Virus record (IMG/VR): IMGVR_UViG_3300029442_000002
Span: 1 to 64,000 of that record
Source: a virus
Direction: 5' to 3' (one strand)
DNA length: 64,000 bases
Shown here: positions 6,332 to 31,351 of the stretch, piece after piece
Layout: every line of letters starts with the position of its first letter
How positions within the stretch are numbered: position 1 is the first letter of the stretch
The notes under the pieces: generated by a model
What the model was told of the DNA's origin: nothing
The model's database searches: none
The model's input: the letters and a program-made list of their open reading frames with translations, nothing else
Made by a program: the position numbers and the translations under genes

Positions 6332-6336
6332 AAAAA

Positions 6337-6345
6337 TATTTATCA
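6337..6345 (-). promoter_or_regulatory. Late promoter element
   Basis: It reads TGATAAATA on the minus strand, 5 nt before the ATG of the HNH-like gene. Confidence 0.55.
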
Positions 6346-6429
6346 AAAACCTTTAAAGGTCAACCTATCTTCGTTAAGACGCTACTTTTTGGACATTTGC
6401 GCTAAATAATACGTAAGGAGATATATTAT

Positions 6430-9400: not shown

Positions 9401-9714
9401 TTAATGTTGCTAGATTGATCGTATACTTGAGACGTAAGGTTGATTTGATTGCTAGAGATTTCTTGTTTGAACAAAACGATACAGTAACAAGAAAAGAAAT
9501 CAAAAATGCAATTGAAAAAGAACTTATCAGCATTAAATCACAACGTGGAATTTATGACTACAGCGTAATTTGTGACCTCTCAAATAATTCTACAAATACT
9601 ATAGACAGAAATGAACTATATGTAGACGTAGCAATTGAACCAGAAAAATCTGTAGAATTCATTTATATTCCTGTGCGTATTAAGAACACAGGTGATATTC
9701 AAGCTGGCTTATAA
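6430..9714 (+). CDS. 18: Tail sheath protein, T4 gp18-like, enlarged
   Basis: The N terminus (MALVSAGVQVSIVDES) and the last 200 residues are typical of gp18. The C-terminal part includes DRVNVARLIVYLRRKVD, FLFEQNDTVTRKEI and a VAIEPEKSVEFIYIPVRI strand. The sheath contracts to drive the tube through the envelope. At 1094 aa it is much longer than T4 gp18 (659 aa). The extra length is a central run of repeated beta-rich pieces (residues about 110-700) with recurring WYYNN/WLDT-type strands, probably surface domains. A GGAGAT site and CTAAATA element precede it, and a hairpin terminator follows. Confidence 0.9.
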   Translation: MALVSAGVQVSIVDESTYSISTLGTTPLVVVATSENKSNPSGNLAAYTTAANAGEVFLVTSQRELVTNYGQPEFLVSNGTPVHGYELNEYGLYAAYSALGVSNAAYVLRADLDLNQLSSSLVQPSGPPANATLWLDTVNSKFGMLEWNSSTGFREINTSRISGDGKLFVITSTNQISGNEPVTNIGKQGDYAIDATNIDNPAFYKNASGWVEVGSADWEMSWPTVSGTSTYTHSSTNVTFTITGASSGSHVITVRNGNTVSNIAATINTAAITGITASVTTAGYLQIFSNSVASPITLSSSSSILTSLGIPNGGGSFSCPKYIASKHTQVPAGGAWSANGSDPRPTGSIWFKTTSPNNGASIKVNRYSSATQTWTSLTTPIFPSDVAIINDPVYGDPSGGGLGIPASSTYIQSSITTDVTTSQPLYTFKLFDRVAGVSSVTGSTVSPTFVNASNVIPKTYTFTLSASTLQSGSWAMSSPTTVSFTVGNSATANAGVIITAINNAGLVNVNAELTPANKVKITHAAGGVMELHDGANTPLTVSGITISSTGARESDVNAGNIWISNWRPALYTVGSSQPTADPLNGTYWYYNNTVEYDILINNGAAWKGYLLGGTDARGYTLSLTDPAGPIVSASMPTSNSAGDPLVGGDLWVNTSDFENFPRIYRYNDISTTWILIDNTDHTSENGIIFADARWDGSGTVDPITDPLPTIASLLNSNYVDSDCPSYALYPKGTLLFNTRRSGMNVKQFAVNYFPAGGPAVTSTWVSASGNDSNGVAYLGRRAQRAIVVSKMASAVLANTQLLEETRDFNIICAPGYPELGNVLTQLNVNRKETAFVLLDTPMRLAATSNNLLAYGSNLGVADGTDAAAGDALINYEYSAAYYPSGYTQSLAGDFVVVPPTHMALRTIIRSDQKSYPWFAPAGTRRGTVDNVSAIGYIDGQTGSFKSIGVNNGLRDALYQGKVNPITFLTNSGITIYGQKTRSANTSALDRVNVARLIVYLRRKVDLIARDFLFEQNDTVTRKEIKNAIEKELISIKSQRGIYDYSVICDLSNNSTNTIDRNELYVDVAIEPEKSVEFIYIPVRIKNTGDIQAGL

Positions 9715-9736
9715 TTAGACCTAAGTAGTAGAACAC

Positions 9737-9764
9737 AATGGCGCATATTAAGTTATGCGCCATT
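9737..9764 (+). terminator. Hairpin terminator after the sheath gene
   Basis: AATGGCGCAT and ATGCGCCATT form a stem around a short loop and are followed by a T-rich run. The inverted copy of the same 28 bases lies at 11355-11382, so the two copies bracket the endonuclease gene. The endonuclease stop codon lies inside this hairpin. Confidence 0.85.
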
Positions 9765-11291
9765 TTTATTTTCATTGGTCCACAACCATTTAGCATGACC
9801 ACAATCCCAAATTCGATCATATCCTTGTAATTGTCTATTTTCCCATTCAGTTAAAGATTGGTCATCATCTTTGTTTTTACGTAATGAATACCGATGAATC
9901 CTGGTCATGTCTGGCAATTGAAAATACCAATAACCAGGTACAGTATTTTCTACAAATGTAAAGCCAAGATGTTTATATGAATTACCAGTAAACCATCTAA
10001 GATCTGCATAACTTATTACTTTTATTGGATTAATATTTTTAATAAAATGAGCAAATAACCTACTTGCACCACCTATTACTTTGATATCTAGAACACCAGC
10101 CATCCGTTGTATTTCCCAAGTATCTTTATTACCACGGCTTATATTTGAATTTGAAAAAGTCATTACATATACTAATTTGTTCTGACAAAATAAGCCATAT
10201 TTGATATTAGATTTTGCATAACCGTGTATATGATTTTCTTCTAGAAATAATCTTGCATCTACAGTAGAAATTTCTTTTATAATACATTTTCTAGCAAATA
10301 TCTTATCTGTTATTAGTCCAAGCTTATTTTTAAGCATTGCTTTAACTAATTCTTGTTTATTAGACCATTCGTCTTCAAAAATAGTAATTAGGTCAATACC
10401 TTTTTTATTACATTGATCACATTTATATCGGTGATATTCTTGGCCCTTACCCATAGTATCACTATGCCAATATAACCCACAATATTCAATAGCTATTTTC
10501 TTATTTGGTAAAAACACATCTAATTCAAGTGGCGAAATTTGCATTCTGTCACCAGAAACAGTTACTGGTTCTAAATTTAATATAAATTTAAATACTTCTA
10601 ATTCGGCTTTACTTTTATAAATATTATCTATTGGTCTACATATTGGACAAAAATCTATTCTAAACTTATCTGGTTTTGTTGCTTGGGCTGTTCTGGAAAA
10701 ACTAGTATTACAAATTAAGCAATTACAAAAATAAACTTTAAAATTATCATGACCATATAAATTGATATTATGCAATAATAGAAATGCTTTGTATTTTTCA
10801 AATGTATTTAATTTTCTTTCTTCCCATTTTTCTTTTGATGACGAAACTATTTTATTCTTAGATTCTTGAGAATGATGTTTTCCTTTCATGCTACTAACAA
10901 TTGGACCTTTTGCTCGTTTTGTAGCATATGCTTTTTTAGATCGTTCTTTTAGCTCATCTTGATTATTAATAGCATATTCGTGATTTTTTTGACTTAGAAC
11001 TTTCTTCTTTTCATCAGAACATATTGATCCTCGTTTAATTTCACCACGTTGAAATCGCTCTTCTCGTAGCGTAATAGCAATTCTCATATTTTCTAATGCT
11101 ACTGGATCAGTAAGTTTTTTTCCTTTATTATGAGCTGTTTTTCCAAGTTTTAATGCTATTGATTCCTCGCTCCACAATGAACCATATAATGCCGAATATT
11201 CTTTTCCAGACATATTATGTTCGGAATTTAAATGTTGGTACGGAATAATCTTCGGGAATTTTTTATTACATAATTTACATATAATGGACAT
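9753..11291 (-). CDS. EDxHD (Vsr-like) homing endonuclease
   Basis: The N terminus has a zinc-finger-like CKLCNKKF...HLNSEH pattern. Residues 95-160 are basic with a NUMOD3-like GKHHSQESKNKI motif. The nuclease core holds SKAELEVFKF, LELDVFLP, IEYCGLYWHSD and LITIFEDEW, which fits the EDxHD family related to Vsr and I-Bth0305I. A C-terminal domain (about residues 330-512) with FLEENHIHGY and VISYADLRWFTG may bind DNA. It is inserted on the opposite strand between sheath and tube genes, as free-standing phage homing endonucleases often are. Confidence 0.8.
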   Translation of the reverse strand: MSIICKLCNKKFPKIIPYQHLNSEHNMSGKEYSALYGSLWSEESIALKLGKTAHNKGKKLTDPVALENMRIAITLREERFQRGEIKRGSICSDEKKKVLSQKNHEYAINNQDELKERSKKAYATKRAKGPIVSSMKGKHHSQESKNKIVSSSKEKWEERKLNTFEKYKAFLLLHNINLYGHDNFKVYFCNCLICNTSFSRTAQATKPDKFRIDFCPICRPIDNIYKSKAELEVFKFILNLEPVTVSGDRMQISPLELDVFLPNKKIAIEYCGLYWHSDTMGKGQEYHRYKCDQCNKKGIDLITIFEDEWSNKQELVKAMLKNKLGLITDKIFARKCIIKEISTVDARLFLEENHIHGYAKSNIKYGLFCQNKLVYVMTFSNSNISRGNKDTWEIQRMAGVLDIKVIGGASRLFAHFIKNINPIKVISYADLRWFTGNSYKHLGFTFVENTVPGYWYFQLPDMTRIHRYSLRKNKDDDQSLTEWENRQLQGYDRIWDCGHAKWLWTNENKNGA

Positions 11292-11354
11292 AGCAGTTAA
11301 ACCTCATAATACTATTTATGCCTGTATCATTACTATTATAACATAAATCATGGC

Positions 11355-11382
11355 AATGGCGCATAACTTAATATGCGCCATT
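11355..11382 (-). repeat. Inverted copy of the sheath-gene hairpin
   Basis: It is exactly the reverse complement of 9737-9764, loop included. It lacks a T run on the plus strand. It lies upstream of the endonuclease and downstream of the minus-strand gene at 11392, for which it could act as terminator. Confidence 0.8.
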
Positions 11383-11391
11383 CGCTGTATC

Positions 11392-11634
11392 TTAACCTAA
11401 ACTTACAAATTTATTCAATTTGTCTGCTTCTGCAATTATTTCTGTTGTTGTTGGTAGATCTGGGAAAGTTGGGAAATCCATAGGGTTTTCTGGTTCATTT
11501 TGTCCTGGATAAACTTCTCTTCTAGATTTATACTCAGCTAATAAAGATTCTCTTTTTAATATAACTGGAGTATGCAGGATTGTTACTGATAATTTGAGTA
11601 ACTCAAGTCTAATTTCATAAGGCGTTTTTGCCAT
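11392..11634 (-). CDS. Small conserved phage protein
   Basis: The start MAKTPYEIRLELLKL is preceded by AAAGGAAAA; the longer upstream frame lacks a site. The protein has 80 aa: an amphipathic helix, a short linker with YKSRREVYPGQ, and an acidic end with TTTEIIAEADKLNKFV. I recall similar small proteins near tail genes of marine T4-like phages but know no function. Confidence 0.65.
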   Translation of the reverse strand: MAKTPYEIRLELLKLSVTILHTPVILKRESLLAEYKSRREVYPGQNEPENPMDFPTFPDLPTTTEIIAEADKLNKFVSLG

Positions 11635-11644
11635 GTGTGTTTTC

Positions 11645-11665
11645 CTTTGTGACATTGTCACAAAG
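11645..11665 (-). promoter_or_regulatory. 9-bp inverted repeat over a ribosome binding site
   Basis: CTTTGTGAC and GTCACAAAG flank ATT. In the minus-strand transcript the second arm ends in the AAAG of the AAAGGA ribosome site of the gene at 11634. It could be a translational hairpin or an operator. Confidence 0.45.
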
Positions 11666-11666
11666 A

Positions 11667-11674
11667 TATTTATA
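11667..11674 (-). promoter_or_regulatory. Late promoter element
   Basis: It reads TATAAATA on the minus strand, the exact T4 late consensus, upstream of the gene at 11634. Confidence 0.55.
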
Positions 11675-11731
11675 TACATTTTTAAACCCAGGGCAAAAAT
11701 TAGCTTTTCACTCAAAGATTTTACCAAATAC

Positions 11732-11740
11732 TGATAAATA
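11732..11740 (+). promoter_or_regulatory. Late promoter element
   Basis: TGATAAATA lies 21 nt upstream of the tail tube start, followed by GTAGGAGAT as ribosome site. Confidence 0.65.
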
Positions 11741-11761
11741 TTACTGTAGGAGATTACAATT

Positions 11762-12403
11762 ATGGCAATCGCAAGTTTGACAAAATTTACAGTTCCGCTG
11801 GGTGGGGGTCAGACTTCTGCCAGCCAAGGTCTGTTAATGCCAAAGTTAAAATATAGATTTAGAATCACGTTTTTAAATTTTGGTGTAAGTGGAAGTTCAA
11901 CAGAACTTTCAAAGCAAGTTATGACATTCAAAAGACCAACAGTTACTTTTGAACAAGGTGTAATTGATATTTACAACAGCAAACTAAAGTATGCTGGTAA
12001 GTATAATTGGGAAGATACTTCTGTTCAACTACGTGACGATGCAAGCGGGCAAGTTAGCCGATTAGTTGGTGAACAAGTTCAGAAGCAATTTGATTTTATG
12101 GAACAAGCTAGTGCAAGATCAGCAGCTGATTATAAGTTCCAAATGAATTGCGAAATTTTAGATGGTGGCAATGGCGCATTTGATCCAAATACATTGGAAC
12201 AATGGGAAATTTACGGATGCTATCTTAAGTCAGTTGACTATGGTGATTTGAGTTACGCTGAAGCAACAGCTCCAGTAACAATCAATCTTGCTATAGCATT
12301 TGATAATGCTGTTCAAACAGACACAAGTACAGGCGTTGGAACAAACCAATTAGGTATCGGTGCAAATGTTGGACGTACATTAGGTGCAGTTCTTATAGGT
12401 TAA
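11762..12403 (+). CDS. 19: Tail tube protein, T4 gp19-like
   Basis: The protein has 213 aa, as expected near 163-200 aa. It has the tube pattern: KYRFRITFLNFG, QVMTFKRPTVTFEQ, DIYNSKLKYAGKYNWEDTSV, a FQMNCEILDGG strand and a YGCYLKSVDYGDLSY segment with INLAIAFDNA. Tube rings stack inside the sheath and pass the DNA. It follows a late promoter and is followed at 3 nt by a second tube-fold gene. Confidence 0.9.
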   Translation: MAIASLTKFTVPLGGGQTSASQGLLMPKLKYRFRITFLNFGVSGSSTELSKQVMTFKRPTVTFEQGVIDIYNSKLKYAGKYNWEDTSVQLRDDASGQVSRLVGEQVQKQFDFMEQASARSAADYKFQMNCEILDGGNGAFDPNTLEQWEIYGCYLKSVDYGDLSYAEATAPVTINLAIAFDNAVQTDTSTGVGTNQLGIGANVGRTLGAVLIG

Positions 12404-19655: not shown

Positions 19656-20255
19656 ATGACAACAAAAGATATATTCTTAGATACTATAAACAAGTTTAAT
19701 GATATATTACAAAAGCCTGTACCTCAAATACTTAATGAAACCATTGTTAAGAGAGGTAGTAAGTGGTGTGTAATAAGCAAGAAGAAAAATAAAGAAGGCA
19801 AGCATAAAAATCTTGGTAAGTATGACACCAAAGAAGAAGCTGAAAAACGTCTTAAGCAAGTAGAATATTTTAAGCATGTAAAAGAAGGTGTAGAACAACC
19901 TGCGCCCAATAGAAACACAGTTATAAAGTTACTACAAAAATTACCACAGCCAATAATGTTAAATGGTGGTGGATATGGATATACTTGCAACGTAAAAAAA
20001 GATCCGATGATGTGGGAAACAAGTGATGGTGATACTATTGATTTAAAGAAGTATGGTAGCGACATTAAAGAGATTGGTCAATGGCTATCAACTTATCAAC
20101 GTCAAGATTGGGAAAATTTATTCGACGATCGAGCTGCTGACTGGGAAATAGAAGATTATATTAATCAACTTATCGAAGAAAGAGTATTAGTCCCAGGTAA
20201 GTCGATGAAAAGTCAAGAAGAATTTGAACAAGGTGGATTGCGCGGAGACTATTAA
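19656..20255 (+). CDS. Head-region protein with LGxYDTKEEAEKRLKQVEYF module
   Basis: The start at 19656 follows AAAAGGAG; the upstream extension has none. The 199 aa begin MTTKDIFLDTINKF. Residues 40-85 form a small basic module (WCVISKKK, LGKYDTKEEAEKRL, QVEYFKH) seen in many phage proteins of unknown role. The C-terminal 90 residues are paralogous to the gene at 20690 (KLPQPI, YTCN, DPMMWE, WENLFDD). Confidence 0.6.
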   Translation: MTTKDIFLDTINKFNDILQKPVPQILNETIVKRGSKWCVISKKKNKEGKHKNLGKYDTKEEAEKRLKQVEYFKHVKEGVEQPAPNRNTVIKLLQKLPQPIMLNGGGYGYTCNVKKDPMMWETSDGDTIDLKKYGSDIKEIGQWLSTYQRQDWENLFDDRAADWEIEDYINQLIEERVLVPGKSMKSQEEFEQGGLRGDY

Positions 20256-20256
20256 G

Positions 20257-20685
20257 TTGTTAATTAGTGAAGTAGTATCGCAAGAAGGATTAACTGCAAT
20301 GCGTCGAATGGGTATGCAACAAGACCACGAAGGCGCATTAGCACGATCCAGATATGAAAAACTAACTGGAAAAGAGTGGACATCACCAAATAATATATCT
20401 CAACCTGAAGTAAAGAAAATTGATCCTACGTATGCAGGTAGAATGCAGGCTAAAAAATGCGTTGATATATTACAATCGTATGATTTTGTATTTGAAAGGC
20501 AAGAAATTTTTAAAAGCATAAGAACAAATATATATAGATATGCTGGAAAAAATTCATTATTTAAAGGACTTACTATCAGTGTTGATAGTACAAGTACCTG
20601 GAGAGTGTATCAAAATAAATTTTTCGAAGCAGTTGGACATACTCCCAACGAACTAAAAAAATTCCTAGAGTTATGTAGAGGATAA
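20257..20685 (+). CDS. Hypothetical protein, TTG start likely
   Basis: The first good start is TTG at 20257, 8 nt after GCGGAG; the frame is open upstream to 20224 and a GTG there is possible. The protein has about 142 aa with MRRMGMQQDHEGALARSRYE, a KLTGKEW turn and a late helical part. It follows the preceding gene directly. The family is not recognised. Confidence 0.5.
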   Translation: MLISEVVSQEGLTAMRRMGMQQDHEGALARSRYEKLTGKEWTSPNNISQPEVKKIDPTYAGRMQAKKCVDILQSYDFVFERQEIFKSIRTNIYRYAGKNSLFKGLTISVDSTSTWRVYQNKFFEAVGHTPNELKKFLELCRG

Positions 20686-20689
20686 AAAG

Positions 20690-21013
20690 ATGACAACATT
20701 GAACGATTATTTACGCGAAGCTAATTTCAAGAAATGGCCAAAAGAAACTAACAGAGCTTTTGTTACTTTAATGTTATCACACTTGCCGCAGCCTATAACA
20801 GTAGGAGAATATACTTGTAATTTTTCTAGAGATCCACTTGTTTGGAAAAGTAAAGAAGGCAATATAATTAAGTTGTACGATTTGTCAGAGTTAGAAGAGT
20901 ATCTAGATTTTCATATTGCTCAAGAATGGCGAGAGCTATTTGACGAATACATTTCTAATGAACATGAATTACAGGCGGTAATAGAACATTTAGTTGATAT
21001 TGGAGTAATATGA
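20690..21013 (+). CDS. Small paralog of the gene at 19656
   Basis: The protein has 107 aa, beginning MTTLNDYLREANF, again a capsid-targeting-like start. Residues 30-100 match the C-terminal part of the 19656 protein (LPQPIT, YTCNFSRDPLVWKSKEGN, ELFDEYI). Duplication of one domain within the head-gene run is clear. Function unknown. Confidence 0.6.
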   Translation: MTTLNDYLREANFKKWPKETNRAFVTLMLSHLPQPITVGEYTCNFSRDPLVWKSKEGNIIKLYDLSELEEYLDFHIAQEWRELFDEYISNEHELQAVIEHLVDIGVI

Positions 21014-21366
21014 GATTATATGAGATAGCAGGTAAGAAAGAAAAAATTCACCCAGATCATAATAATGCAATTCCTAATGCAACTATGTTTCCTAAGATGG
21101 ATCAATATTATGAGCTATACAGAGCTGGCGTAGAAATTGCTGGATTACCTGGCGAACCTATGCCGTCTTCGGGACCGAGCGGAGATGCACCATTTTTTGT
21201 TCCGTATTCACAATGTGATCATGACATGATTAAGAAACTCACTAATTATGGTCCAAGAAAACAACTTACACATGGTAAGTCGAAAGAAGCAGATTCAACT
21301 CACAAAGTATCTCCATTTAATACTAATGCTAACAAGCCAAAGAAACCCAAAGTAGATGTATTCTAA
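21010..21366 (+). CDS. Small conserved head-region protein
   Basis: The protein has 118 aa: MRLYEIAG start, then IPNATMFPKMDQYYELYRAGVE, a GEPMPSSGP segment and a PFFVPYSQCDHDMIKK helix, with a basic flexible tail. I recall the D-x-YYELYRAGV pattern from related phages without a function. It overlaps both neighbours by 4 nt or less. Confidence 0.55.
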   Translation: MRLYEIAGKKEKIHPDHNNAIPNATMFPKMDQYYELYRAGVEIAGLPGEPMPSSGPSGDAPFFVPYSQCDHDMIKKLTNYGPRKQLTHGKSKEADSTHKVSPFNTNANKPKKPKVDVF

Positions 21367-21863
21367 TGCAGATTAATGAACTATTGGGTAAGAATATATC
21401 TGATGAATCATATGACTTCAAAGAAATAAATGATGATACCTATAGATTTGAAACTGATTCCAATAGAATATACGATGTTATATTTTCTTTTTTCGAAGGA
21501 CCACATATAGTTGAAGTTACATTTGGTCTTAAAGTTAAAGATGCGTCATATTATAATTATGGTGTTGCATCATTAAATGATATGAAAGAAACTATTAAAG
21601 TATTTACAACAGTGATTAATATCTGTAAATTATACTGTGAACAAAAACATCCATTGGTTTGGGTATTTGCTGCCAAAGAACAATCTAGAATAAAGTTATA
21701 TCAAAGACTTTCTTTGACTTTAGCAAAAACATTTAATTTAAAATATAAAATTGAAACTATGTATGGTGAAAAGATGTTTATATTGTGGGATAAAACGCCT
21801 GATGCGCAGAGATTAGCCCAAGGATATATCAATCGAAATCTTGGTTGGGAACCTGATGTTTGA
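21366..21863 (+). CDS. Hypothetical protein, GNAT-fold-like phage family
   Basis: The protein has 165 aa. Pattern VEVTFGLKV, IKVFTTVINI, VWVFAAKEQSRIKLYQRL occurs in a phage family I remember with a degenerate acetyltransferase-like fold. The MQINELLG start again resembles the head-region N termini. Its last 51 bases overlap the minus-strand HNH gene. Confidence 0.55.
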   Translation: MQINELLGKNISDESYDFKEINDDTYRFETDSNRIYDVIFSFFEGPHIVEVTFGLKVKDASYYNYGVASLNDMKETIKVFTTVINICKLYCEQKHPLVWVFAAKEQSRIKLYQRLSLTLAKTFNLKYKIETMYGEKMFILWDKTPDAQRLAQGYINRNLGWEPDV

Positions 21864-22391
21864 AGCAGTCTTTCCACCAACCCGTAAGTAAGGTATCCAC
21901 GATGCATGAGATACTATAATTGGCAACTCGAGACGTTTTGCTGAGAGTGAGTAGTAGTCTGGGACCCAAGGTTTAAATAACGGAGTCCAATGTTGATGTC
22001 CTTTACGTAAATTACAAGTTTTACAAGCTGAAATACAATTACTCCAGGTGCTTCGCCCGCCTTCACATTTTGGGATAACATGATCCACACTTAAATCTTT
22101 ATGTGAGAATACTTCACCACAGTATCCACACTTATATCCATCTCTAATATATAGAAGTTGTCTGCTAAATCTAACCTTACCTTTTCTAAAATTAAACTTT
22201 TCTTTTGTTATAGCAACTGAAGGTAATTGTATAGATAACTTTGGAGATCTAATCCATCTATCTTCATACAAGTGTATAGGAGTAATTTTTTCAAGGCAAT
22301 ACAATCTCATGCAATCTTGCCATGAAATAACACTCAAAGGCAAGAAATCTGTTGGCTCTCCTGAATTAGTTAACAACAAGGTGTCTGACAT
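21813..22391 (-). CDS. HNH endonuclease
   Basis: Start MSDTLLLTNSGEP at 22391. The N-terminal half has the FLPLSVISWQDCMRLYCLEK pattern common to one HNH family. The HNH core follows: CGYCGEVF, DLSVDHVIPKCEGGRSTWSN, and CISACKTCNLRKG with two zinc CxxC pairs. The protein has 192 aa. It lies divergently to the terminase gene, overlaps its neighbour, and is likely a free-standing homing or packaging-associated nuclease. Confidence 0.85.
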   Translation of the reverse strand: MSDTLLLTNSGEPTDFLPLSVISWQDCMRLYCLEKITPIHLYEDRWIRSPKLSIQLPSVAITKEKFNFRKGKVRFSRQLLYIRDGYKCGYCGEVFSHKDLSVDHVIPKCEGGRSTWSNCISACKTCNLRKGHQHWTPLFKPWVPDYYSLSAKRLELPIIVSHASWIPYLRVGGKTASNIRFPTKISIDISLG

Positions 22392-22432
22392 ATTAATACT
22401 TATCCTACAAATAATCAGGTAAATATTATTAC

Positions 22433-22822
22433 ATGTCTCGCCCATTAGATACCGTATTAATTAAAAAACCAAATAGAGTACAGAGTTATACTGAAGATCA
22501 AATTGAAGAATTGAATAAATGTCTTGATCCAGTTACTGGCCCATTATATTTTTTAAGTAATTTTTTTTACATACAGCATCCTACTCGTGGCAAGTTACTT
22601 TATGATCCATATATTTTTCAAGAACGATTAGTTGATACTATCCATAATAATATATTTTCAATTGCGCTCTGCCCGAGACAAGTGGGCAAGTGTTTAGAGA
22701 AAAGTATAAATATAACTATAAGGAATAAAAAAACAGGAAAAATTTATGAAATTCCTATAGGAAAATATTATGAATGGAACAAAGATAAAAGAATTGATAT
22801 TAGCAACTACGAACGAAAATAA
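22433..22822 (+). CDS. 17: Large terminase part 1: extein 1 fused to N-intein 1
   Basis: Residues 1-86 are the TerL N terminus and end in CPRQVGK, the front of the Walker A motif. From C87 (22691) a 43-residue N-intein begins (CLEKSINITIRN, then TGKIYEIPIGKYYEW) and the frame stops at TAA. Block-A-like Cys1 and the exact break inside the P-loop identify a split intein. The partner half starts at 23744 in another polypeptide. Alone this piece cannot bind ATP. Confidence 0.85.
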   Translation: MSRPLDTVLIKKPNRVQSYTEDQIEELNKCLDPVTGPLYFLSNFFYIQHPTRGKLLYDPYIFQERLVDTIHNNIFSIALCPRQVGKCLEKSINITIRNKKTGKIYEIPIGKYYEWNKDKRIDISNYERK

Positions 22823-23768
22823 AACATATTATAATTGGTGTAAAAAGCATGAATGTGAAAAAAGAGGTAAAGGAACAAATACTAGATGTGAAACTTGCTT
22901 AATAGAAAAGTCACATTTGAAATTTACTAATGTAAACATAGATGAATGGGTTGAATGTAAAGTATGTGGAATGAGACTAAAAGAACTTGGAGTTCACTTG
23001 ATTAATGTTCATAATATTAATACCAAAGAATATAGAAAAGAGGGCAATTATACAAAATGTAAAATAGCAAGAGAACGGATCAAAGGCGAAAAAAATCCTG
23101 GATTTAATCATAATGGCCGAATGTCAGCATGGAGTAAAAACTTTAAAAATGGGTACGATGAAGGTAAACATATTCAGGCCAAAGAAAATCATAAAAAGTA
23201 TATGTCTGAGAATAAAGATAAATCGATGTTTAGAATCGATTATTGGATTAAACAAGCAGAAGGAGACACAGAAGAAGCACAAAAATTATATAAGAAATCA
23301 CAAACAAGAAGTTTAGAATGGTTTATAAATAAATTTGGTCTAATCGAAGGACCAATTCGACACCAATCCAAAACTGAAAAGTGGATGAAAAGTTTTAAAA
23401 AATGTAATTTTTCTAAAATATCACAAATATTATTTGATGAAATATACAATAATTTAAACGATAAAGATGAAATTTATTATGCAACTTTAGACAGAGAAGA
23501 TATGAAGAAATATTTTAATAAAGAATATATTTTTAAAACGAATAGCTCATATATACGGCCTGATTTTATTTGTTTATCTAGAAAGAAGATTATAGAATTT
23601 GATGGAACATACTGGCATTCTCCACGTAAAGCTAATATTCTAAGAGACCAATTCAGAGACGATAAAATTTTAGAAAAAGGATTTCAAGTATTACATATTT
23701 TAGAATACGATTTTGAAAAAGACAAAGAAGGAATCATACAAAAATGCCTGAATTTTCTGAACAAGTAG
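22770..23768 (+). CDS. Free-standing EDxHD-type homing endonuclease inside split intein 1
   Basis: ATG at 22770 follows ATAGGA and overlaps N-intein 1 by 53 nt in another frame. The 332 aa hold two Cys pairs near the N terminus (CKKHEC, CETC), a CKVCGMRLKELGVHLINVH finger, and NUMOD-like basic helices. The nuclease core has IRPDFICLSRKKIIEFDGTY, a WHS turn and RDDKILEKGFQVLHI, matching EDxHD/Vsr-like enzymes. Its end overlaps the C-intein start by 25 nt. This is the fractured-gene layout known from marine metagenomes. Confidence 0.85.
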   Translation: MNGTKIKELILATTNENKTYYNWCKKHECEKRGKGTNTRCETCLIEKSHLKFTNVNIDEWVECKVCGMRLKELGVHLINVHNINTKEYRKEGNYTKCKIARERIKGEKNPGFNHNGRMSAWSKNFKNGYDEGKHIQAKENHKKYMSENKDKSMFRIDYWIKQAEGDTEEAQKLYKKSQTRSLEWFINKFGLIEGPIRHQSKTEKWMKSFKKCNFSKISQILFDEIYNNLNDKDEIYYATLDREDMKKYFNKEYIFKTNSSYIRPDFICLSRKKIIEFDGTYWHSPRKANILRDQFRDDKILEKGFQVLHILEYDFEKDKEGIIQKCLNFLNK

Positions 23769-24814
23769 AACGAAAATTTATAGATCAAATACAAATCGAT
23801 AATGAATGGGAAATTGAAACCGATACTGGGTGGGAACCCATTACTTCAATTAATAAAACAGTCAAGTATCAAATATATGAACTGTATCTTGAAAATGGAA
23901 TGTTTCTAAAATGTGCAGATACACATATTGTATTTGATGAAAATTTTAATGAAGTATATGTAAAAGATCTTAAAATTACTAATACAGTTATAACTAAAGA
24001 TGGACCAGTAAATGTTAAACAACTTATAAAAACAGATAATTTTGATAATATGTTTGATTTGACTGTCAATAGTAATAATCATAGATTTTATACAAATGAT
24101 ATATTAAGTCATAATACAATTACAGTCAGTGGATATTTACTTTGGTATGCTATGTTTGTTCCTGATTCAACTATTTTAATAGCTGCTCATAAGTATATTG
24201 GAGCTCAGGAAATTATGCAACGTATTAGATATGCATATGAAAGCGTCCCGGATCATATACGTGCTGGTTCAACTAGTTATAATAAAGGTAGTTTAGAATT
24301 TGATAATGGGTCAAGAATTATGGCTCAAACAACTACGCCAACAACAGGTCGTGGAACTTCAATTTCAATATTATACTGCGATGAAATGGCATTCGTACCT
24401 GGAACTATAGCAAAAGAATTTTGGACAAGTATCAGTCCTGCACTCAGCACAGGTGGTAAAGCAATTATTACTAGCACTCCAAATAGTGATGAAGATCAAT
24501 TTGCTATGATTTGGAAGCAAGCTAATAAATGCATAGATTCATTTGGAAATAAGACTGAATTGGGTATAAATGGATTCAAAGCATTTAGATCATATTGGGA
24601 AGAGCACCCAGATAGAGACGAAAAGTGGAAACAAACTGAAATTGGCAGAATAGGAATTGATCGTTTTGAACGAGAACACAATTGCTGCAACGGTAATACA
24701 AAAATTGAGCTGATAGATAATATAGGCAAAGAATTAGTTATTTCAATGGAAGAGTTTTTTAATATTATAGATAAAAATAAATCTATCGAAGAAAAAAATC
24801 ATATGAGGTACTAA
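23744..24814 (+). CDS. 17: Large terminase part 2: C-intein 1, extein 2, N-intein 2
   Basis: Residues 1-124 are C-intein 1: EIETDTGWEPITSI, CADTHIVF (block B His), FDLTV and HRFYTNDILSHN. T125 (24116) starts extein 2, completing Walker A as GK-T. The 189-aa extein holds ILIAAHK, the SILYCDEMAF Walker B with E, and TSTPNS. After FEREHN, C314 (24683) begins a 43-residue N-intein 2 (CCNGNTKIELIDNIG) ending at TAA. ATG 23744 follows AAGAAGGA. It should splice at both ends. Confidence 0.85.
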   Translation: MPEFSEQVERKFIDQIQIDNEWEIETDTGWEPITSINKTVKYQIYELYLENGMFLKCADTHIVFDENFNEVYVKDLKITNTVITKDGPVNVKQLIKTDNFDNMFDLTVNSNNHRFYTNDILSHNTITVSGYLLWYAMFVPDSTILIAAHKYIGAQEIMQRIRYAYESVPDHIRAGSTSYNKGSLEFDNGSRIMAQTTTPTTGRGTSISILYCDEMAFVPGTIAKEFWTSISPALSTGGKAIITSTPNSDEDQFAMIWKQANKCIDSFGNKTELGINGFKAFRSYWEEHPDRDEKWKQTEIGRIGIDRFEREHNCCNGNTKIELIDNIGKELVISMEEFFNIIDKNKSIEEKNHMRY

Positions 24815-24815
24815 C

Positions 24816-25898
24816 ATGGGAGTAATATTCAAAAAAAATGTAAATCAGTACAAAGTATCGACACCAAATGGATATAAAATGTTCTCAGGAATTAGTTATA
24901 TGGGAGATAAAGAAATATATCATTGTAAATTTGAAGATAACATTTGGCTTGAAAGTACTATCGATCATAAAATTTATATTTCTAATACAGAATATAAAAC
25001 AATCAATGAATTGGAAATTGGTGATTGTATATTAACTTCTGTTGGTAAAAAGAAATTATTAGAAAAAATTGATACAAACACAATTCAAAAAGTATATGAT
25101 CTAATAGACGTTGAAGATGGTCATAGATATTATACCAATGGAGTTCTATCATCAAATTGCTCTTTTATTACAGCAGATGAGACTTTAATTAGTAATATGA
25201 AAATTCCTGAACTTAAAAGTTCAGAGCCAATATTCATGCAAGGCCAAGTTCGATGGTATTTGACTCCAACTAAAGGTAATACTTACATTCTAGGGCTTGA
25301 TCCAAGTTTAGGTACTGGTGGAGATATGGCGGCTATTCAAGTATTTGAAAGCCCAAGTATGAAACAAGCTGCTGAATGGCAACACAATAAAACACCAATA
25401 CAAAAACAAATACAAGTTTTAAAAGAAATGACAAAGTATCTAAGTGATATAGTTGGGAATAACAATATTTATTATAGCGTTGAAAATAATACATTAGGTG
25501 AAGCTGCATTAGTTAGCATAGCTGATATTGGTGAAGAAAATATTCCAGGTATATTTCTAAGTGAGCCATCAAAGTTAGGAACATCTAGGGCATACAGAAA
25601 AGGTTTTACAACCACTAATAAATCTAAATTGGCAGCTTGTGCTAAATTAAAAAGTTTGATTGAAAACGACAAGATAACTATTAATAGTAAAAATTTAATT
25701 TCTGAACTCAAAACTTTCGTAAGTTCTGGAGCTAGCTTTTCAGCTAAATCTGGTGAAACTGATGACTTAATAATGGCTACTATTTTAGTTGTGAGAATGG
25801 CAACAGTTTTGAAACAATATGATCCAGCATTAGATAATCAATTTAGTGAGAAGAATGAAGAAGCACAACCAATGCCTTTCATAATGGTATTTAGATAA
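24816..25898 (+). CDS. 17: Large terminase part 3: C-intein 2 fused to nuclease extein
   Basis: Starts 1 nt after the preceding stop; a GAGG site lies in the end of part 2. Residues 1-114 are a C-intein of the AceL-TerL type: VSTPNGYKMFSGI, LESTIDHKIYI, NELEIGDCIL and HRYYTNGVLSSN, with Ser in place of the usual penultimate His. C115 (25158) begins the 246-aa nuclease domain: ILGLDPSLGTGGDMAAI (catalytic D), SVENNTLGEAAL and GETDDLIMA. Joined exteins total 521 aa, a normal gp17 length. Confidence 0.87.
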   Translation: MGVIFKKNVNQYKVSTPNGYKMFSGISYMGDKEIYHCKFEDNIWLESTIDHKIYISNTEYKTINELEIGDCILTSVGKKKLLEKIDTNTIQKVYDLIDVEDGHRYYTNGVLSSNCSFITADETLISNMKIPELKSSEPIFMQGQVRWYLTPTKGNTYILGLDPSLGTGGDMAAIQVFESPSMKQAAEWQHNKTPIQKQIQVLKEMTKYLSDIVGNNNIYYSVENNTLGEAALVSIADIGEENIPGIFLSEPSKLGTSRAYRKGFTTTNKSKLAACAKLKSLIENDKITINSKNLISELKTFVSSGASFSAKSGETDDLIMATILVVRMATVLKQYDPALDNQFSEKNEEAQPMPFIMVFR

Positions 25899-25901
25899 AT
25901 A
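25894..25901 (+). promoter_or_regulatory. Late promoter element
   Basis: GATAAATA overlaps the TerL stop and lies 5 nt before the ATG at 25907. Confidence 0.55.
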
Positions 25902-25906
25902 ATATT

Positions 25907-27772
25907 ATGCCAAATAAGTCAGAAAATTTACTATTGCACAATAAAAAAGAGCTATTCCAGTTCTTAAATTCACGGTTTGAAAAAAATGTAAAGATGTTTG
26001 ATGAAGGTGGGCAGCAAGTTACTGACTATAATAAAGTAGCTGATTTCATAGTTCCATTTTCAGATATGCATGGTCATAAAGTAGATGTTATTAATATTAC
26101 ACTTGAGCCAGATGTTGAAAATGACAATGAAGAAAAATATATTATCAAAATGATGTTTACTAAAGACATGTTAAATTCAGGCCATCTTGTTAACAATAAG
26201 TTTGATAAATTTGAAAAAGATCTAATTGCTTGGTCTAAGAGTAGAATGATAGATTTCAAACCAGTTCCAGTTGACGTAGTAGTAAAACGTCATAAAACAA
26301 TGTATGAAAGTAAGTTTGGGCCACTTAGTGGAACAGTTAAAACAAGTACTCAAACACTAGAAAATGCAAAATTAATTATCAAGCATACAGATACAATTGA
26401 TGAGAACATTAGAGGTTCACGTACTAGAAAAATTCACAAAATTTACGTTGAAAATAGTAATGGTGAAAAGTTTCTGTTACCTTACAAGAATATGAGAGGT
26501 GCCAGAGCAATGGCACGTCACGTGAATTTCGGTGGAAATCCATATGATAAAGCTGGACAATCAATAAGCAATTTTGTTTCTGAAGCAATCGCATTAAGTA
26601 AGTTTGTACGCAAAACAAGAAATAAAAACTTTGATCAGATGGCAACTGAAATGGTCGAAGCTGCTCAAATACGATTAACTGAAGTTAAAAAACAACTTAG
26701 TAGATTATGTTCTGAGCGTGGTTATACCAAGTATAAAGAAGAGTTAGTTGAACAACAAGAAATTGAATTTAATGAAGATATAAAAAGCCATTTTATTCAA
26801 AATAAGTATGATGAAGCATTAGATGAATGTTTACCATTTGTCTGGGGAGCCTACAAAAAAATGTCTGAGATGAAAGAAATAAAAGAATTTAAAAATTGGG
26901 TTGAAGAAGCTGTTGATCCCCGACTTGATCAAGCTGTTAAGCAAGCAACTAATTCAAAAACACCGCCAGTTTCAGTAGTAACTGATCCAGATGGCACTCA
27001 AGAATTACAAGCTAATCCAGCTGATCCAAAAACAAATGATGCTTTGAAACAAATTTCAAAAAATATGGGTGGCAAATTACCCCCAGTATCAATTAAAAAA
27101 GTTACTGAAGATGGTATGACTCAATTTACAGTTACATTTACTAAACCAGGTAAGAAGTTAGTTAAGACTATTAATGCTGCAAGTAAAGAATCTGCAGAAA
27201 TTGAAGCTTATAATATGGCTGATAAGAATGGTTGGGGAATCAGAGGTGAAGTTGTACCTGTTCAAGAAACACTTGGTGGTGATAAAGCAGACGATTTTGT
27301 TGATTCAGTACGAGACAAAGATCAACCAATTGTTGAAGACGATGAATTACATATTGACCAAGATGATCAAGAAGGTGAGATGTCATTAGGCGGAATGTGC
27401 AAAGAATGCGGAGTATATTTTGGACAAGATGACAGCTCAGAAAAATCAATGAGTGATCCAAGTAAGTGTAAAGATTGTGCTGGTGAATGTGAAGCTGAAA
27501 GAAACGCTGAACGTGAAGCAGGCGTAAAATATGAGTATACTGATAAAGTAGGTGGAGACAAATGTATTGAGTGTGGTGCTTTCTTTGACGCCGACCATGA
27601 TCCATCAGAATCATTTTATGCCAAGCGATCAGACGAAGATCCAGATAATAAGTGCAAAGATTGTGCTGGAGAAACTGAATATGGTGGTGAAGAATATCCA
27701 CATACAGAAGAAGACACAAACAACTTATTCAATGAAGAATTTAGTAGGATGAAATTTCTATTAAAATATTAG
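25907..27772 (+). CDS. Large conserved phage structural-type protein with zinc-ribbon repeats
   Basis: The protein has 621 aa. Residues 140-230 carry SKFGPLSGTVKTSTQTLENA, DENIRGSRTRKI and RGARAMARHVNFGGNPYD, a set I recall in related phages downstream of terminase. Later parts are acidic, with TQFTVTFTKPGKKLVKTI. The C-terminal 150 residues contain two Cys modules, CKECGVYF...CKDC and CIECGAFF...CKDC, like the gene at 18662. A head or prohead role is likely but unproven. Confidence 0.6.
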   Translation: MPNKSENLLLHNKKELFQFLNSRFEKNVKMFDEGGQQVTDYNKVADFIVPFSDMHGHKVDVINITLEPDVENDNEEKYIIKMMFTKDMLNSGHLVNNKFDKFEKDLIAWSKSRMIDFKPVPVDVVVKRHKTMYESKFGPLSGTVKTSTQTLENAKLIIKHTDTIDENIRGSRTRKIHKIYVENSNGEKFLLPYKNMRGARAMARHVNFGGNPYDKAGQSISNFVSEAIALSKFVRKTRNKNFDQMATEMVEAAQIRLTEVKKQLSRLCSERGYTKYKEELVEQQEIEFNEDIKSHFIQNKYDEALDECLPFVWGAYKKMSEMKEIKEFKNWVEEAVDPRLDQAVKQATNSKTPPVSVVTDPDGTQELQANPADPKTNDALKQISKNMGGKLPPVSIKKVTEDGMTQFTVTFTKPGKKLVKTINAASKESAEIEAYNMADKNGWGIRGEVVPVQETLGGDKADDFVDSVRDKDQPIVEDDELHIDQDDQEGEMSLGGMCKECGVYFGQDDSSEKSMSDPSKCKDCAGECEAERNAEREAGVKYEYTDKVGGDKCIECGAFFDADHDPSESFYAKRSDEDPDNKCKDCAGETEYGGEEYPHTEEDTNNLFNEEFSRMKFLLKY

Positions 27773-27798
27773 GTTTTTATCATTAAATCCGCTATAAT
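27773..27798 (+). promoter_or_regulatory. Promoter next to TnpB element 1
   Basis: TTAGGT and TATAAT (27793-27798) at 18-nt spacing. The same arrangement occurs upstream of gp32 beyond the element, so the element is flanked by two related promoters. Confidence 0.45.
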
Positions 27799-27814
27799 AA
27801 TTATATAGACTAAA

Positions 27815-29050
27815 TGAACTACTATGCCGATTGAGGCATAGATTCCTGCTTCATAGATGTCAACGGGACATCTCCACAGGCTTCGATTTCTGTAGTTCCT
27901 ACAGTATTTTTGAACAACGAATTGTCAATAATTAATGGACCCCAAAAGGCAATATTTTGTGCGGCATTTAGGTCTCGGTCAAGAGTTGCTTTGCAATTTG
28001 AACATATCCAAATTCTTATACCCAGACCAAATCCAGTATGTTTATGATTACATACATGACATGTTTTGGTAGATGCAGCCCATTGGCTAACTTGACTGAA
28101 ATGCTTGCCATATAATTGGCACTTGTATTTGAGCATATTTAGAAACATGCTCCATCCCTGATCACTTATTGCTCGGTTCATTGCTCTATTTTTCCTCTTC
28201 AACAGATCCTTGGTTTTCAGATCTTCACAACAAATCAAATCATATATATTAACTAATCTCCTACTTGTCTGATGCAAAAAATTCAATCTTTGATTACGAA
28301 TTTTGCGATGTAATTTTGCTACTTTGATACGTTCTTTGTTTCTGTTATTTGACCCAATTTTTCTATGTGATAATTTTCGTTGTTTCCACTTCAACTTATT
28401 GAGTGATTGCTTAAGAAATTTTGGACTTGGAATTATCTCTTGGTCACTTGTTACTGCAAATGCTTTGATTCCAAGATCTATACCAACGCAATTATCTCGA
28501 TCAATTAGAACTTGTTGTTGATCTTCAACTTCACACACAACTGATATGAACCATCTGTCTACATCACATGTAACTGTAACTGACGAATGATTAATTGGCA
28601 ATGATCTGTCAAATATTATATTAATCCACCCAATTTTTGGTAGATAAACTTTCTTATCTGTAAATTTGACATGTTGAACATATCTAATTCCTGATTCGCT
28701 GCCTTTCTTTTTGAATTTTGGATAAGCTCTTATCTTAACATGTTTCAATGCGCCATCTAGTTCCTTCAATGATTGTTGTAGAACTTGAGCAGTGGTTTCT
28801 TTTAACCATGGATAAGCAATTTTCAATTCTGGTAATTGCATAGCCATATCATAATACCAAATAAATTTCTTAGTTGATGCATACTCAATGTTATTTTGAT
28901 TAAGCATATAATTCCAAATCCATCTAGTTGAGCCCATCGATTTACGAAGTTGAGTTATTTGATTGTCATTTGGATATATTCGATATTTGTATCTTAGTTT
29001 CATATGTATAAATACTTCTGGGTGCATAAACTGTTTTCATATGCAGTTTT
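27815..29050 (-). mobile_element. TnpB-only IS200/IS605-type element 1
   Basis: The right end is set by comparison with element 2: both share a hairpin followed by TAGTTCA on the minus strand, after which they diverge (boundary 27815). The hairpin here is CTATGCC/GGCATAG and contains the tnpB stop. The left end is unclear; a candidate AAACTG/CAGTTT hairpin lies just past the start. No TnpA is present. Confidence 0.6.
27822..29003 (-). CDS. tnpB: TnpB, RNA-guided nuclease of IS605 family
   Basis: ATG at 29003 gives 393 aa. The RuvC triad is visible: D176 in GIDLGIKAF, E260 in CCEDLKTKD and D344 in DRDLNAAQN. Zinc Cys pairs are at 315/318 and 334/337. TnpB proteins cut DNA guided by an RNA from the element's right end. 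From about residue 160 to the end it is nearly identical to the copy at 32098, while the N-terminal part is only about 40% alike. All catalytic residues are intact. Confidence 0.9.
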   Translation of the reverse strand: MKLRYKYRIYPNDNQITQLRKSMGSTRWIWNYMLNQNNIEYASTKKFIWYYDMAMQLPELKIAYPWLKETTAQVLQQSLKELDGALKHVKIRAYPKFKKKGSESGIRYVQHVKFTDKKVYLPKIGWINIIFDRSLPINHSSVTVTCDVDRWFISVVCEVEDQQQVLIDRDNCVGIDLGIKAFAVTSDQEIIPSPKFLKQSLNKLKWKQRKLSHRKIGSNNRNKERIKVAKLHRKIRNQRLNFLHQTSRRLVNIYDLICCEDLKTKDLLKRKNRAMNRAISDQGWSMFLNMLKYKCQLYGKHFSQVSQWAASTKTCHVCNHKHTGFGLGIRIWICSNCKATLDRDLNAAQNIAFWGPLIIDNSLFKNTVGTTEIEACGDVPLTSMKQESMPQSA

Positions 29051-29110
29051 GAAGTAACATACGTCGAATATATTACTTCCACCCACCATACTTATTTATG
29101 CCAAATAGAT

Positions 29111-29156
29111 TAGGTTTTAAAGAAAATCCATGTTATAATTAATTAAATGATAAATA
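29111..29156 (+). promoter_or_regulatory. Early plus late promoter of gp32
   Basis: TTAGGT (29111 region) and TATAAT at 29134-29139 with 18-nt spacing are followed by TGATAAATA at 29148-29156. Dual early and late control fits the need for SSB through infection. The ribosome site AAAGGAATAT precedes the ATG. Confidence 0.5.
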
Positions 29157-29210
29157 CATTTGCTACAGAAATTATCTTTGTAGACAGTGAAATAAAGGAA
29201 TATAATTATT

Positions 29211-30179
29211 ATGGCGACACTCGCAGAAATCCGCGCTAAACTTCAAGCGCAAGACAATAAATCAGACAAAAAAGGTTTTGGAGATAAGCAACTTTATCCG
29301 CATTGGAATATCAATGAGAATGAATCGTGCTTACTAAGGTTTTTACCTGACAAGAATACAAAGAATTCATTCTTTTGGGTAGAACGTGCATTAATTAATC
29401 TTTCATTCCCATCAGTAAAAGGTGCTTCTGAAGCAAAGACAGCATATGTAAAAGTTCCATGTATGGAAATGTGGGGAGAAACTTGCCCTGTACTAACAGA
29501 AGTTCGTCCTTGGTACAAGGATGCTTCATTAAAGGAACAAGCTGGTAAGTATTGGAAGAAGCGTACTTATTTGATGCAAGGGTTTGTACGTGAGAATCCA
29601 ATTGAGGAAGAAACACCTGAGAATCTAGTTAGACGGTTTATCATCAGCCCGCAGCTTTTTTCACTTATTAAGGCGGCACTACTTGATCCTGAATTAGAAG
29701 AATTACCAACAGATTTTAATCACGGATTAGATTTCCGTATTAATAAGACAGCTGGTAAGGGTGGTTATTCTGATTACAATACAAGCAAATGGTCCAGAAA
29801 AGAATCAGCACTAACTGATAAAGAACGTGCAGCTATTGAACAATATGGATTATTTGATTTATCGGATGGTTTACCTAAGAAACCAAGTGACAAAGAAGTA
29901 AAGATCATTAAAGAAATGTTCGAAGCTTCTGTAAATGGCGATATGTATGATCCCGAAAAGTGGGGAGAGTATTTTAAGCCAGGTGGGTCATATGTTGCAG
30001 AAACAGTAGATACATCGTCTGCTAAGGCAACAACTCACACAACTCACACAACTCAAGCAGCACCTGTTCAAGAAGACAGTGTTGCACCTGTGGTAACTCC
30101 TACTACAGCACCTAAGTCAACTCAAGCAACTGATATTCTTAAGATGATTAAAGAACGTCAAGCAAACGCAAAGAAGTAA
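29211..30179 (+). CDS. 32: Single-stranded DNA-binding protein, gp32
   Basis: The protein has 322 aa (T4 gp32 has 301). A basic N terminus (LAEIRAKLQAQ) for cooperativity is followed by the core: LYPHWNINENESCLLRFLPD, FFWVERALINLSFPSV, the zinc region with VPCMEMWGETCPV and a YLMQGFVREN strand, then FDLSDGLPKKP. The C-terminal tail is flexible but rich in Thr rather than strongly acidic. gp32 coats ssDNA in replication and recombination and is followed by a terminator, then uvsX. Confidence 0.92.
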   Translation: MATLAEIRAKLQAQDNKSDKKGFGDKQLYPHWNINENESCLLRFLPDKNTKNSFFWVERALINLSFPSVKGASEAKTAYVKVPCMEMWGETCPVLTEVRPWYKDASLKEQAGKYWKKRTYLMQGFVRENPIEEETPENLVRRFIISPQLFSLIKAALLDPELEELPTDFNHGLDFRINKTAGKGGYSDYNTSKWSRKESALTDKERAAIEQYGLFDLSDGLPKKPSDKEVKIIKEMFEASVNGDMYDPEKWGEYFKPGGSYVAETVDTSSAKATTHTTHTTQAAPVQEDSVAPVVTPTTAPKSTQATDILKMIKERQANAKK

Positions 30180-30195
30180 TTAATAGCAAACATAG

Positions 30196-30224
30196 AATGG
30201 CGTATGAAACTTATACGCCATTTT
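30196..30224 (+). terminator. Hairpin terminator after gp32
   Basis: AATGGCGTAT and ATACGCCATT form a 10-bp stem followed by TTTT. It has the same design as the sheath-gene terminator (AATGGCGCAT). Confidence 0.85.
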
Positions 30225-30244
30225 CATATTAGGAGAATATAACT

Positions 30245-31351
30245 ATGGCTGGAAAGCCTTTTGGTGTAGATAGATTTAGACGTGAATTAACAAAAAGTAT
30301 TGAAGGCCTTGGTATTGGTTTTCATGATCCAACAGATTGGATTTCTACTGGTAGTTTTGTATTAAATGAATTAATTTCTGGACACTTTGATAAAGGTGTG
30401 CCACTTGGTAAAGTAACAATCTTTGCAGGAAGACCAGCATCAGGAAAAAGTCTAATTGTTTCAGGTAATATTATCAAAAATGCTCAAGCACAAAATATTT
30501 TTGTGATCATGATTGATACAGAAAATGCATTAGATGAAGATTGGCTTAAAAAGTTAGATGTAGATACAAGTGAAGGTAAATTACTTAAACTTAGTATGTC
30601 AATGATTGACGATGTTGCTAAAACTATCAGTACTTTTATGACAGACTATAAAGCAACTAGCGAAGAAGACAGACCAAAAATTTTATTTGTTGTTGATAGT
30701 TTAGGTATGTTAATGACGCCAACAGACGTTAAACAGTTTGAATCTGGCGACATGAAGGGCGATATGGGTAGAAAAGCCAAAGCATTAAAGGCACTAGTTA
30801 CTAACTGTGTTAATATGTTTGGTGCTTATAATGTAGGAATGGTATGTACAAATCATACTTATCCAAGCCAAGATCCATATAGTCCTGATGATATTGTATC
30901 AGGAGGAAATGGATTTTTATTTGCAAGTTCGATTGTAGTTGCTACAAAACCACTTAAATTAAAAGAAGATGCTGAAGGTAATAAAGTACCCGATGTACTT
31001 GGAATCAGAGTTGGTTGTAAGGTAATGAAGACACGTTATAATAAGCCATTTGAAACATGTGAAATTAAAATTCCATGGGTTGGTGGTCTTGATCCATATT
31101 CGGGATTATTCGAATTATTTGAAAAGAAGAACCTAATCGAGAAAGAAGGCAACAGATATAAATATATTGATTTACAAGGTGATGAACATAAATATTATCG
31201 AAAAGAGTACCTAGTAAATACAGATTCAATTTTAGATTTGATTATGGGTGAGTATGCTGAGAAGAAAAAGCTTCTATCACCTACACAAGAAGACATAGTT
31301 GGAATTGATGAGTCTGTAATTGAAGAAAGCGAACCAACTGACGATGAGTAG
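30245..31351 (+). CDS. uvsX: UvsX RecA-like recombinase
   Basis: The protein has 368 aa. Walker A is GRPASGKS at residues 62-69 and Walker B ILFVVDSLGML near 145. GGNGFLFASSIVVATKP and RVGCKVMKTRYNKPFE follow the UvsX pattern. The C terminus is acidic. UvsX forms filaments for strand exchange and replication start. A TAGGAGAATATAACT ribosome site precedes it. It is followed by two small genes and uvsY in one run. Confidence 0.93.
   Translation: MAGKPFGVDRFRRELTKSIEGLGIGFHDPTDWISTGSFVLNELISGHFDKGVPLGKVTIFAGRPASGKSLIVSGNIIKNAQAQNIFVIMIDTENALDEDWLKKLDVDTSEGKLLKLSMSMIDDVAKTISTFMTDYKATSEEDRPKILFVVDSLGMLMTPTDVKQFESGDMKGDMGRKAKALKALVTNCVNMFGAYNVGMVCTNHTYPSQDPYSPDDIVSGGNGFLFASSIVVATKPLKLKEDAEGNKVPDVLGIRVGCKVMKTRYNKPFETCEIKIPWVGGLDPYSGLFELFEKKNLIEKEGNRYKYIDLQGDEHKYYRKEYLVNTDSILDLIMGEYAEKKKLLSPTQEDIVGIDESVIEESEPTDDE

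Follow-up and report, generated by a model that had tools for sequence, protein, structure and literature searches.

A twice-fractured large terminase gene

We describe a gene for the large terminase (TerL) of a T4-type large phage that, judging from its sequence, is very probably fractured twice, with its three products joined by two split inteins. The gene lies at positions 22433-25898 of the first 64,000 nucleotides (nt) of the IMG/VR record IMGVR_UViG_3300029442_000002 (record length 66,167 bp); this whole 64,000-nt stretch is referred to here as the window. The locus comprises three terL chains and one further open reading frame (ORF). Chain 1 consists of extein E1 (86 amino acids, aa) and the N-half of the first intein, N1 (43 aa); chain 2 consists of the C-half C1 (124 aa), extein E2 (189 aa) and a second N-half, N2 (43 aa); and chain 3 consists of the C-half C2 (114 aa) and extein E3 (246 aa). 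Re-reading the locus confirmed the ORFs, lengths and junctions of this three-part TerL, with its two split inteins, as given in a preliminary description of the window, which had passed over the 332-aa endonuclease ORF inside the first intein (Table 1).

Table 1. Parts of the fractured terL locus, in window coordinates.
Feature	Positions	Strand	Supporting matches
E1: TerL N-extein, 86 aa, ends ...PRQVGK (first P-loop part)	22433..22690	+	phrog_5989, phrog_36964 TerL; aligns to intact TerL residues 1-86
N1: split intein 1 N-half, 43 aa, Cys1 ... TAA 22820-22822	22691..22822	+	homologous N-halves in L003, L010, L120, others
Vsr/DUF559-like homing endonuclease ORF, free-standing, 332 aa, inside intein 1	22770..23768	+	PF04480 E=2.2e-6; 3r3p E=4e-4
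C1: split intein 1 C-half, 124 aa, ends SHN|T	23744..24115	+	gp41-1 intein sequence match; VidaL 6vgv fold match
E2: middle extein, 189 aa, TITVSGY...FEREHN, Walker B and remaining ATPase	24116..24682	+	PF03237 E=4.6e-11 (chain); T4 gp17 ATPase structures E=3.6e-24
N2: split intein 2 N-half, CCNGNT..., 43 aa, TAA 24812-24814	24683..24814	+	81% identical N-half in L083; 41 further cluster representatives with an N-half at this codon
Probable remnant of lost homing endonuclease, last 10 codons KSYEVLTWE*, now with chain 3 ribosome site	24796..24825	+	L083 endonuclease C-terminus KSYEILSWK*
C2: split intein 2 C-half, 114 aa, ends SSN|C	24816..25157	+	PDB 6dsl CatC intein E=7.6e-10; fold match 6dsl; dN/dS 0.24 vs L083
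E3: C-extein, 246 aa, CSFITADETL..., RNase H-like nuclease domain of TerL	25158..25898 (coding 25158-25895)	+	PF17289 E=2.5e-7; RB49/T4 gp17 nuclease

All three chains are matched, in order, by PHROG TerL profiles; Terminase_6N falls on chain 2 and Terminase_6C on chain 3. When joined, the exteins give a protein of 521 aa that aligns without interruption to dozens of intact TerLs at ~60-70% identity, in keeping with the 521-aa gp17 originally proposed. The joined protein has the features of a T4-type large terminase (gp17), namely an ATPase with P-loop and Walker B and an RNase H-like nuclease, and its P-loop is whole only after joining; the first break divides the P-loop (GK|T), and the second, the Cys276 site, falls at N|C just ahead of the nuclease domain. 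In the AlphaFold model of chain 3 (mean predicted local distance difference test score, pLDDT, 85.2; 77.6 for chain 2), E3 matches the RB49 gp17 nuclease by fold. Each intein has an N-half that starts with a nucleophile, a C-half that ends in Asn followed by Thr (intein 1) or Cys (intein 2), and the Hint fold. Conservation extends to the residues needed for splicing, namely Cys1, the TxxH of C2, and the C-terminal Asn with the Cys/Thr that follows it at each site. With recognisable halves at each break and no other terL found, the earlier reading of two split inteins interrupting one TerL stands.

The preliminary description had named an intact terL elsewhere in the genome as a refutation; we found no second terL in the 66-kb record or in a 242,080-bp contig, IMGVR_UViG_3300022555_000003, although the latter may not be a complete genome. 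This contig is 100% identical to the window over the stretches tested (1-12000, 19816-30895 and 55000-64000), including 11,080 bp around the terL locus, where the two records have the same sequence, and the two may derive from a shared sample. The possible incompleteness and shared sampling count against the reading, as do some features of the inteins. Within intein 1, the block-B threonine is replaced in C1 (ADTH), although this replacement is invariant in four aligned family members. N1 and N2 are both short, and the model of chain 2 shows its terminal N2 segment as disordered, which a split N-fragment would be before pairing but which is no proof of docking.

Corresponding breaks in other phages

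We surveyed 282 loci, forming 191 clusters at 95% nucleotide identity, for insertions and open frames. The scans were aimed at inteins, and the counts therefore do not represent frequencies. In tblastn comparisons of the exteins with relatives, the majority of TerLs from the first scan were uninterrupted, and others were broken at exactly the codons of the window. Both breaks thus fall at codons where other phages carry split inteins, which is more than would be expected by chance. Break positions near residues 130 and 221 were noisy for distant TerLs (in locus L200, the 221-type break sits just before Walker B), alignments with very short N-halves were misaligned and were dropped, and one alignment was built from the window and contig loci only, leaving out the phage-record row.

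TerLs of three or more chains, with chains listed individually, amount to 20 distinct cases including the window (in L208 and L270, one chain escaped the automatic listing and was seen in separate scans), and in these the upstream chains end with an extein followed by an N-half, while the downstream chains begin with a C-half. Their split sites are the P-loop, Walker B (LLY|CDEF, shifted a few residues towards the N-terminus in distant phages) and Cys276. The most fragmented are L120 and L124 (contigs IMGVR_UViG_3300020198_000018 and 3300020197_000396, from two differently numbered metagenomes), where terL, at ~1107-6098, is divided into four chains of 122, 249, 246 and 365 aa with all three sites split, so that three trans-splices would be needed; two endonuclease-like ORFs lie between the chains. 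The L120 contig also carries two more intein C-half matches away from terL. The preliminary description had known of no TerL needing two trans-splicing events, and had proposed searching metagenomes for the same three-part gene. In IMG/VR we found 19 more TerLs made of several chains, among them one that would need three trans-splices, and the claim fails if taken as one of uniqueness. A unique three-chain TerL is ruled out by the 20 distinct cases in the census.

The P-loop intein and its endonuclease

The sequence of chain 2 matches gp41-1 intein structures, and the model of C1 superposes on VidaL (6vgv) with a root-mean-square deviation of 1.0 A over 101 columns; gp41-1 was also matched by fold. 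The 332-aa ORF inside this intein overlaps both of its neighbours, chain 1 at its end and chain 2 at its start. It contains a Vsr-like catalytic core (PDF...IEFDG.YWH) whose residues are invariant or nearly so in three homologues, and a profile of these homologues matched the mobile intron protein 3r3p (E=4e-4), the Vsr-like endonuclease I-Bth0305I. ORFs 41-48% identical to the window endonuclease occur at the same place, within the same intein, in other TerLs (L010 and others); in L003 this intein holds a shrunken endonuclease.

A further arrangement was seen at the P-loop site of L002 (3783-6656). There the gene is unbroken: TerL and intein share one open frame of 957 aa, and a Vsr-like endonuclease (4180-5019) is overprinted on it in another frame. 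The gap size is alike in L214 and L215.

The Cys276 intein and its endonuclease scar

The second intein has the characteristics of the atypical split TerL inteins of the AceL/Cat type: a short N-fragment, block B in the C-fragment, and an insertion site before the conserved Cys of CxF. Its history can be approached by comparison with L083, in which the P-loop is empty and counterparts of N2 and C2 (81% and 80% identical) flank a 337-aa endonuclease. The window keeps only the end of such an endonuclease (Table 1), and the GAGG that serves chain 3 falls within this remnant; the endonuclease was therefore most likely deleted while the split was retained. Among the census loci, the ORFs at this site are varied. 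L083, L021, L028 and L080 have the same intein with an endonuclease family unrelated to that of the P-loop site (DUF7487 where tested, in L083 and L106), L025 and L208 have GIY-YIG-like ORFs, L043 has an HNH-like ORF, and L004 has none.

The closeness of the two halves in the window raises the question of whether intein 2 is really split. A sequencing or assembly indel at the TAAC ATG break (24812-24815), or programmed +1 frameshifting past it, would leave a contiguous second intein and only the P-loop intein split. Stop and start are indeed 1 nt apart, the frame of chain 3 overlaps by three codons, and contiguous Cys276 inteins exist in six representatives. In 41 representatives besides the window, however, the intein is split, and L083 has the same ATG and upstream sequence with its halves a 1-kb endonuclease apart. 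Ahead of its ATG, the frame of chain 3 stays open for just three codons, so that a frameshift or one slip in sequencing would have hardly any space in which to occur. No slippery codon was seen at the break, GAGG is well placed before chain 3, and the second record has the identical sequence. Relatives with corresponding splits also argue against an assembly indel, and we consider this explanation very unlikely.

The preliminary description had used reading frames and ribosome sites against a single frameshift. With respect to frame, this holds for chain 3 only, since chains 1 and 2 share a frame (position mod 3 = 2), with stops and ~0.9 kb between them. With respect to ribosome sites, it holds for chain 3, which has a good one (GAGG, 7 nt), and in part for chain 2, which has a fair one (AAGGA, ~12 nt); that of chain 1 is weak. 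The endonuclease ORF has a good site of its own (AGGA).

Separate origins, selection and recent change

Inteins 1 and 2 share ~23-25% identity. Inteins at different sites in one genome have a median identity of 24% (23% in the window), compared with 48% for P-loop inteins across phages, and all P-loop C-halves (46/46) fall in a single clade with support of 0.98. The low identity between sites, together with the single P-loop clade, indicates that the two inteins came independently. They belong to different lineages and would probably be orthogonal.

Ratios of nonsynonymous to synonymous substitution (dN/dS) between the window and L083 were 0.28 for E1, 0.10 for E2, 0.26 for N2, 0.24 for C2 and 0.045 for E3, which places the halves of intein 2 as well as the exteins under purifying selection. 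These values bear on whether the three chains are spliced at all. They might instead assemble non-covalently into a working motor, much as the pieces of nrdA, broken by a homing endonuclease gene, are described as working without splicing (Friedrich 2007, as cited in PMC10448857). For TerL, by contrast, the first cut separates the Lys of the P-loop from its Thr, both cuts retain intein halves whose splice residues are intact, and the intein 2 halves are themselves constrained, all of which makes unspliced assembly a shade less probable even than the indel. Least probable of all is pseudogene decay of terL, with packaging left to a different terminase: the ORF string is broken several times and the P-loop is disrupted at the gene level, but the low dN/dS of E2 and E3, the full-length extein alignment with intact TerLs, the lack of any other TerL in 242 kb and the recurrence of the architecture in many phages speak against decay.

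Synonymous distances from L083 are lower in the intein (N2 0.38, C2 0.48) than in the exteins (E2 1.67, E3 1.05), as would be expected if the intein had been transferred more recently. Identity to L083 also climbs along terL, from 62% in E1 through 79% in E2 to 92% in E3. The sequence gradient suggests recombination, or a co-conversion tract, around intein 2. More recent change is visible in L208, in which both the P-loop and Cys276 are split. Compared with L210 and L211, it shows 98.6-99.9% identity flanking an exact 1,031-nt insertion at the second site that is absent from the latter two. The same kind of second-site difference, of ~985 nt, separates L302 from L303 (99.8% and 96%). Filled and empty alleles in near-identical phages point to recent gain, or precise loss, of a second split intein in an already fractured TerL. 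The three-chain arrangement is an evolutionary one and no error.

Model for assembly of the terminase

We suggest that the locus yields three chains, E1-N1, C1-E2-N2 and C2-E3, and that docking of N1 in C1, and of N2 in C2, would in each case complete an atypical Hint fold with a short N-fragment of the kind seen in AceL/Cat-TerL and VidaL. Each pair would then excise itself and ligate its flanking exteins, K to T at the first site and N to C at the second. The outcome would be a single gp17 of 521 aa in which the P-loop and both domains are intact. Splicing chemistry, orthogonal pairing and endonuclease activity are all inferred from sequence features. The two elements would have come separately as homing units. 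Intein 1 appears still to travel with its Vsr-like endonuclease, a predicted cutter of intein-free terL at the P-loop, while intein 2 may once have carried a different endonuclease whose deletion left an immobile split intein, presumably indispensable to the phage.

It is conceivable, though we think it improbable, that repeated fracture of terL is more than parasitism and that the need for two or three trans-splices delays the motor until the chains have accumulated. Splicing would then serve as a natural timer, keeping packaging and genome cutting from starting before heads are ready, and the TerL of L120 and L124, with its four chains, would be the extreme of such a role.

Relation to known systems

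The closest precedent is the set of 'fractured genes' that Dassa et al. reportedly described in 2009, in which enzymes are broken in two by split inteins accompanied by free-standing Vsr-like homing endonucleases. The window resembles these in that a split intein interrupts a phage gene and an endonuclease ORF lies between the two intein halves; at site 1 this is a free-standing gene of the Vsr-like type. Unlike those two-piece cases, terL is in three pieces in the window and four in L120 and L124, and the inteins and endonucleases differ from site to site. A further difference is the apparent loss of the endonuclease at site 2, where the window keeps only the 10-codon remnant and the endonuclease is intact in L083.

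Natural split inteins of TerL include AceL-TerL and GOS-TerL, whose N-fragments are only 25-37 aa long (PMC11766414). The window inteins share with these and with Cat (PDB 6dsl) a short N-fragment (43 aa), a long C-fragment and a location in TerL, and C2 matches CatC by sequence and fold, including a +1 Cys. Only intein 2, however, is nearest to this group; the P-loop intein is nearest to gp41-1 and VidaL.

Intein-bearing TerLs were also found in cultured phages when the C-halves were compared with INPHARED by tblastn, and none of those inspected, a non-exhaustive set, needs two trans-splices. Four have two TerL chains and, unlike the window, a single split: Delftia phage PhiW-14 (L341) has a P-loop split intein without an endonuclease, Campylobacter phage F379 (L344) is split near the P-loop with an intervening ORF annotated as an intron-associated endonuclease, Providencia phage PSTRCR_127 (L337) has a split intein at Cys276 near the nuclease boundary, and E. 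coli phage phiS (L338) is split at Walker B with an endonuclease-like sequence fused to the N-half. Campylobacter phage CP21 (L339) has three inteins in TerL (contiguous, split, contiguous), giving two chains and one trans-splice. The TerL of Campylobacter phage IBB_35 is, like that of the window, doubly interrupted, by one intein and an intron with an endonuclease rather than by two split inteins (PMC3322345). In phage MIJ3, the PolB intein is split and accompanied by an HNH gene (PMC6892783).

Some of these records contain features of separate interest. In PhiW-14, the first TerL chain with its N-intein (L341, 3509-3976) is unannotated, so that gp17 of the record lacks its N-terminus, and the second TerL chain of CP21 (L339, 1963-6249) is partly unannotated. 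In phiS (L338, 1757-3508), the N-extein, N-intein and endonuclease-like domain form one 583-aa ORF annotated as a DNA packaging enzyme, and this fused ORF is a possible intermediate between contiguous and fractured genes.

Each of the pieces seen in the window, fractured genes and atypical split inteins of the AceL/Cat-TerL type, is of a known kind; what appears to be new is the multiple fracture of one essential gene. In the openly accessible literature, a scope that does not include the 2009 work on fractured genes, we found neither a TerL described as needing two trans-splices nor any other natural gene carrying two split inteins. Three segments have been joined by two orthogonal split inteins in an engineered tandem system (PMC12707363). 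In contrast to that artificial design, the window would hold a natural counterpart with two split inteins.

If the proposed assembly is correct, the locus is a case in which nature builds an essential enzyme by tandem protein trans-splicing, hitherto used mainly as an engineering device. It suggests that an essential gene can survive two or three invasions by homing elements. The near-identical empty and filled alleles, together with the scar of endonuclease loss, would make steps in split-intein evolution directly readable, and the co-resident inteins are candidate orthogonal pairs that natural selection would have fitted to function side by side in the same cell. Their short N-fragments would be handy for labelling.

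Neighbouring genes

T4-like genes elsewhere in the window include those for a gp32-like single-stranded DNA-binding protein (SSB) and a UvsX-like recombinase. An HNH endonuclease ORF (PF01844; 21813-22445, minus strand) lies on the strand opposite terL, shares 13 nt with the start of chain 1, and has a homologue at the equivalent place in L083 (2437-3012). An IS605 OrfB/TnpB-like ORF (PF01385, Cas12f1-like_TNB; 27822-29027, minus strand) separates the terL cluster from the gene for the gp32-like SSB.
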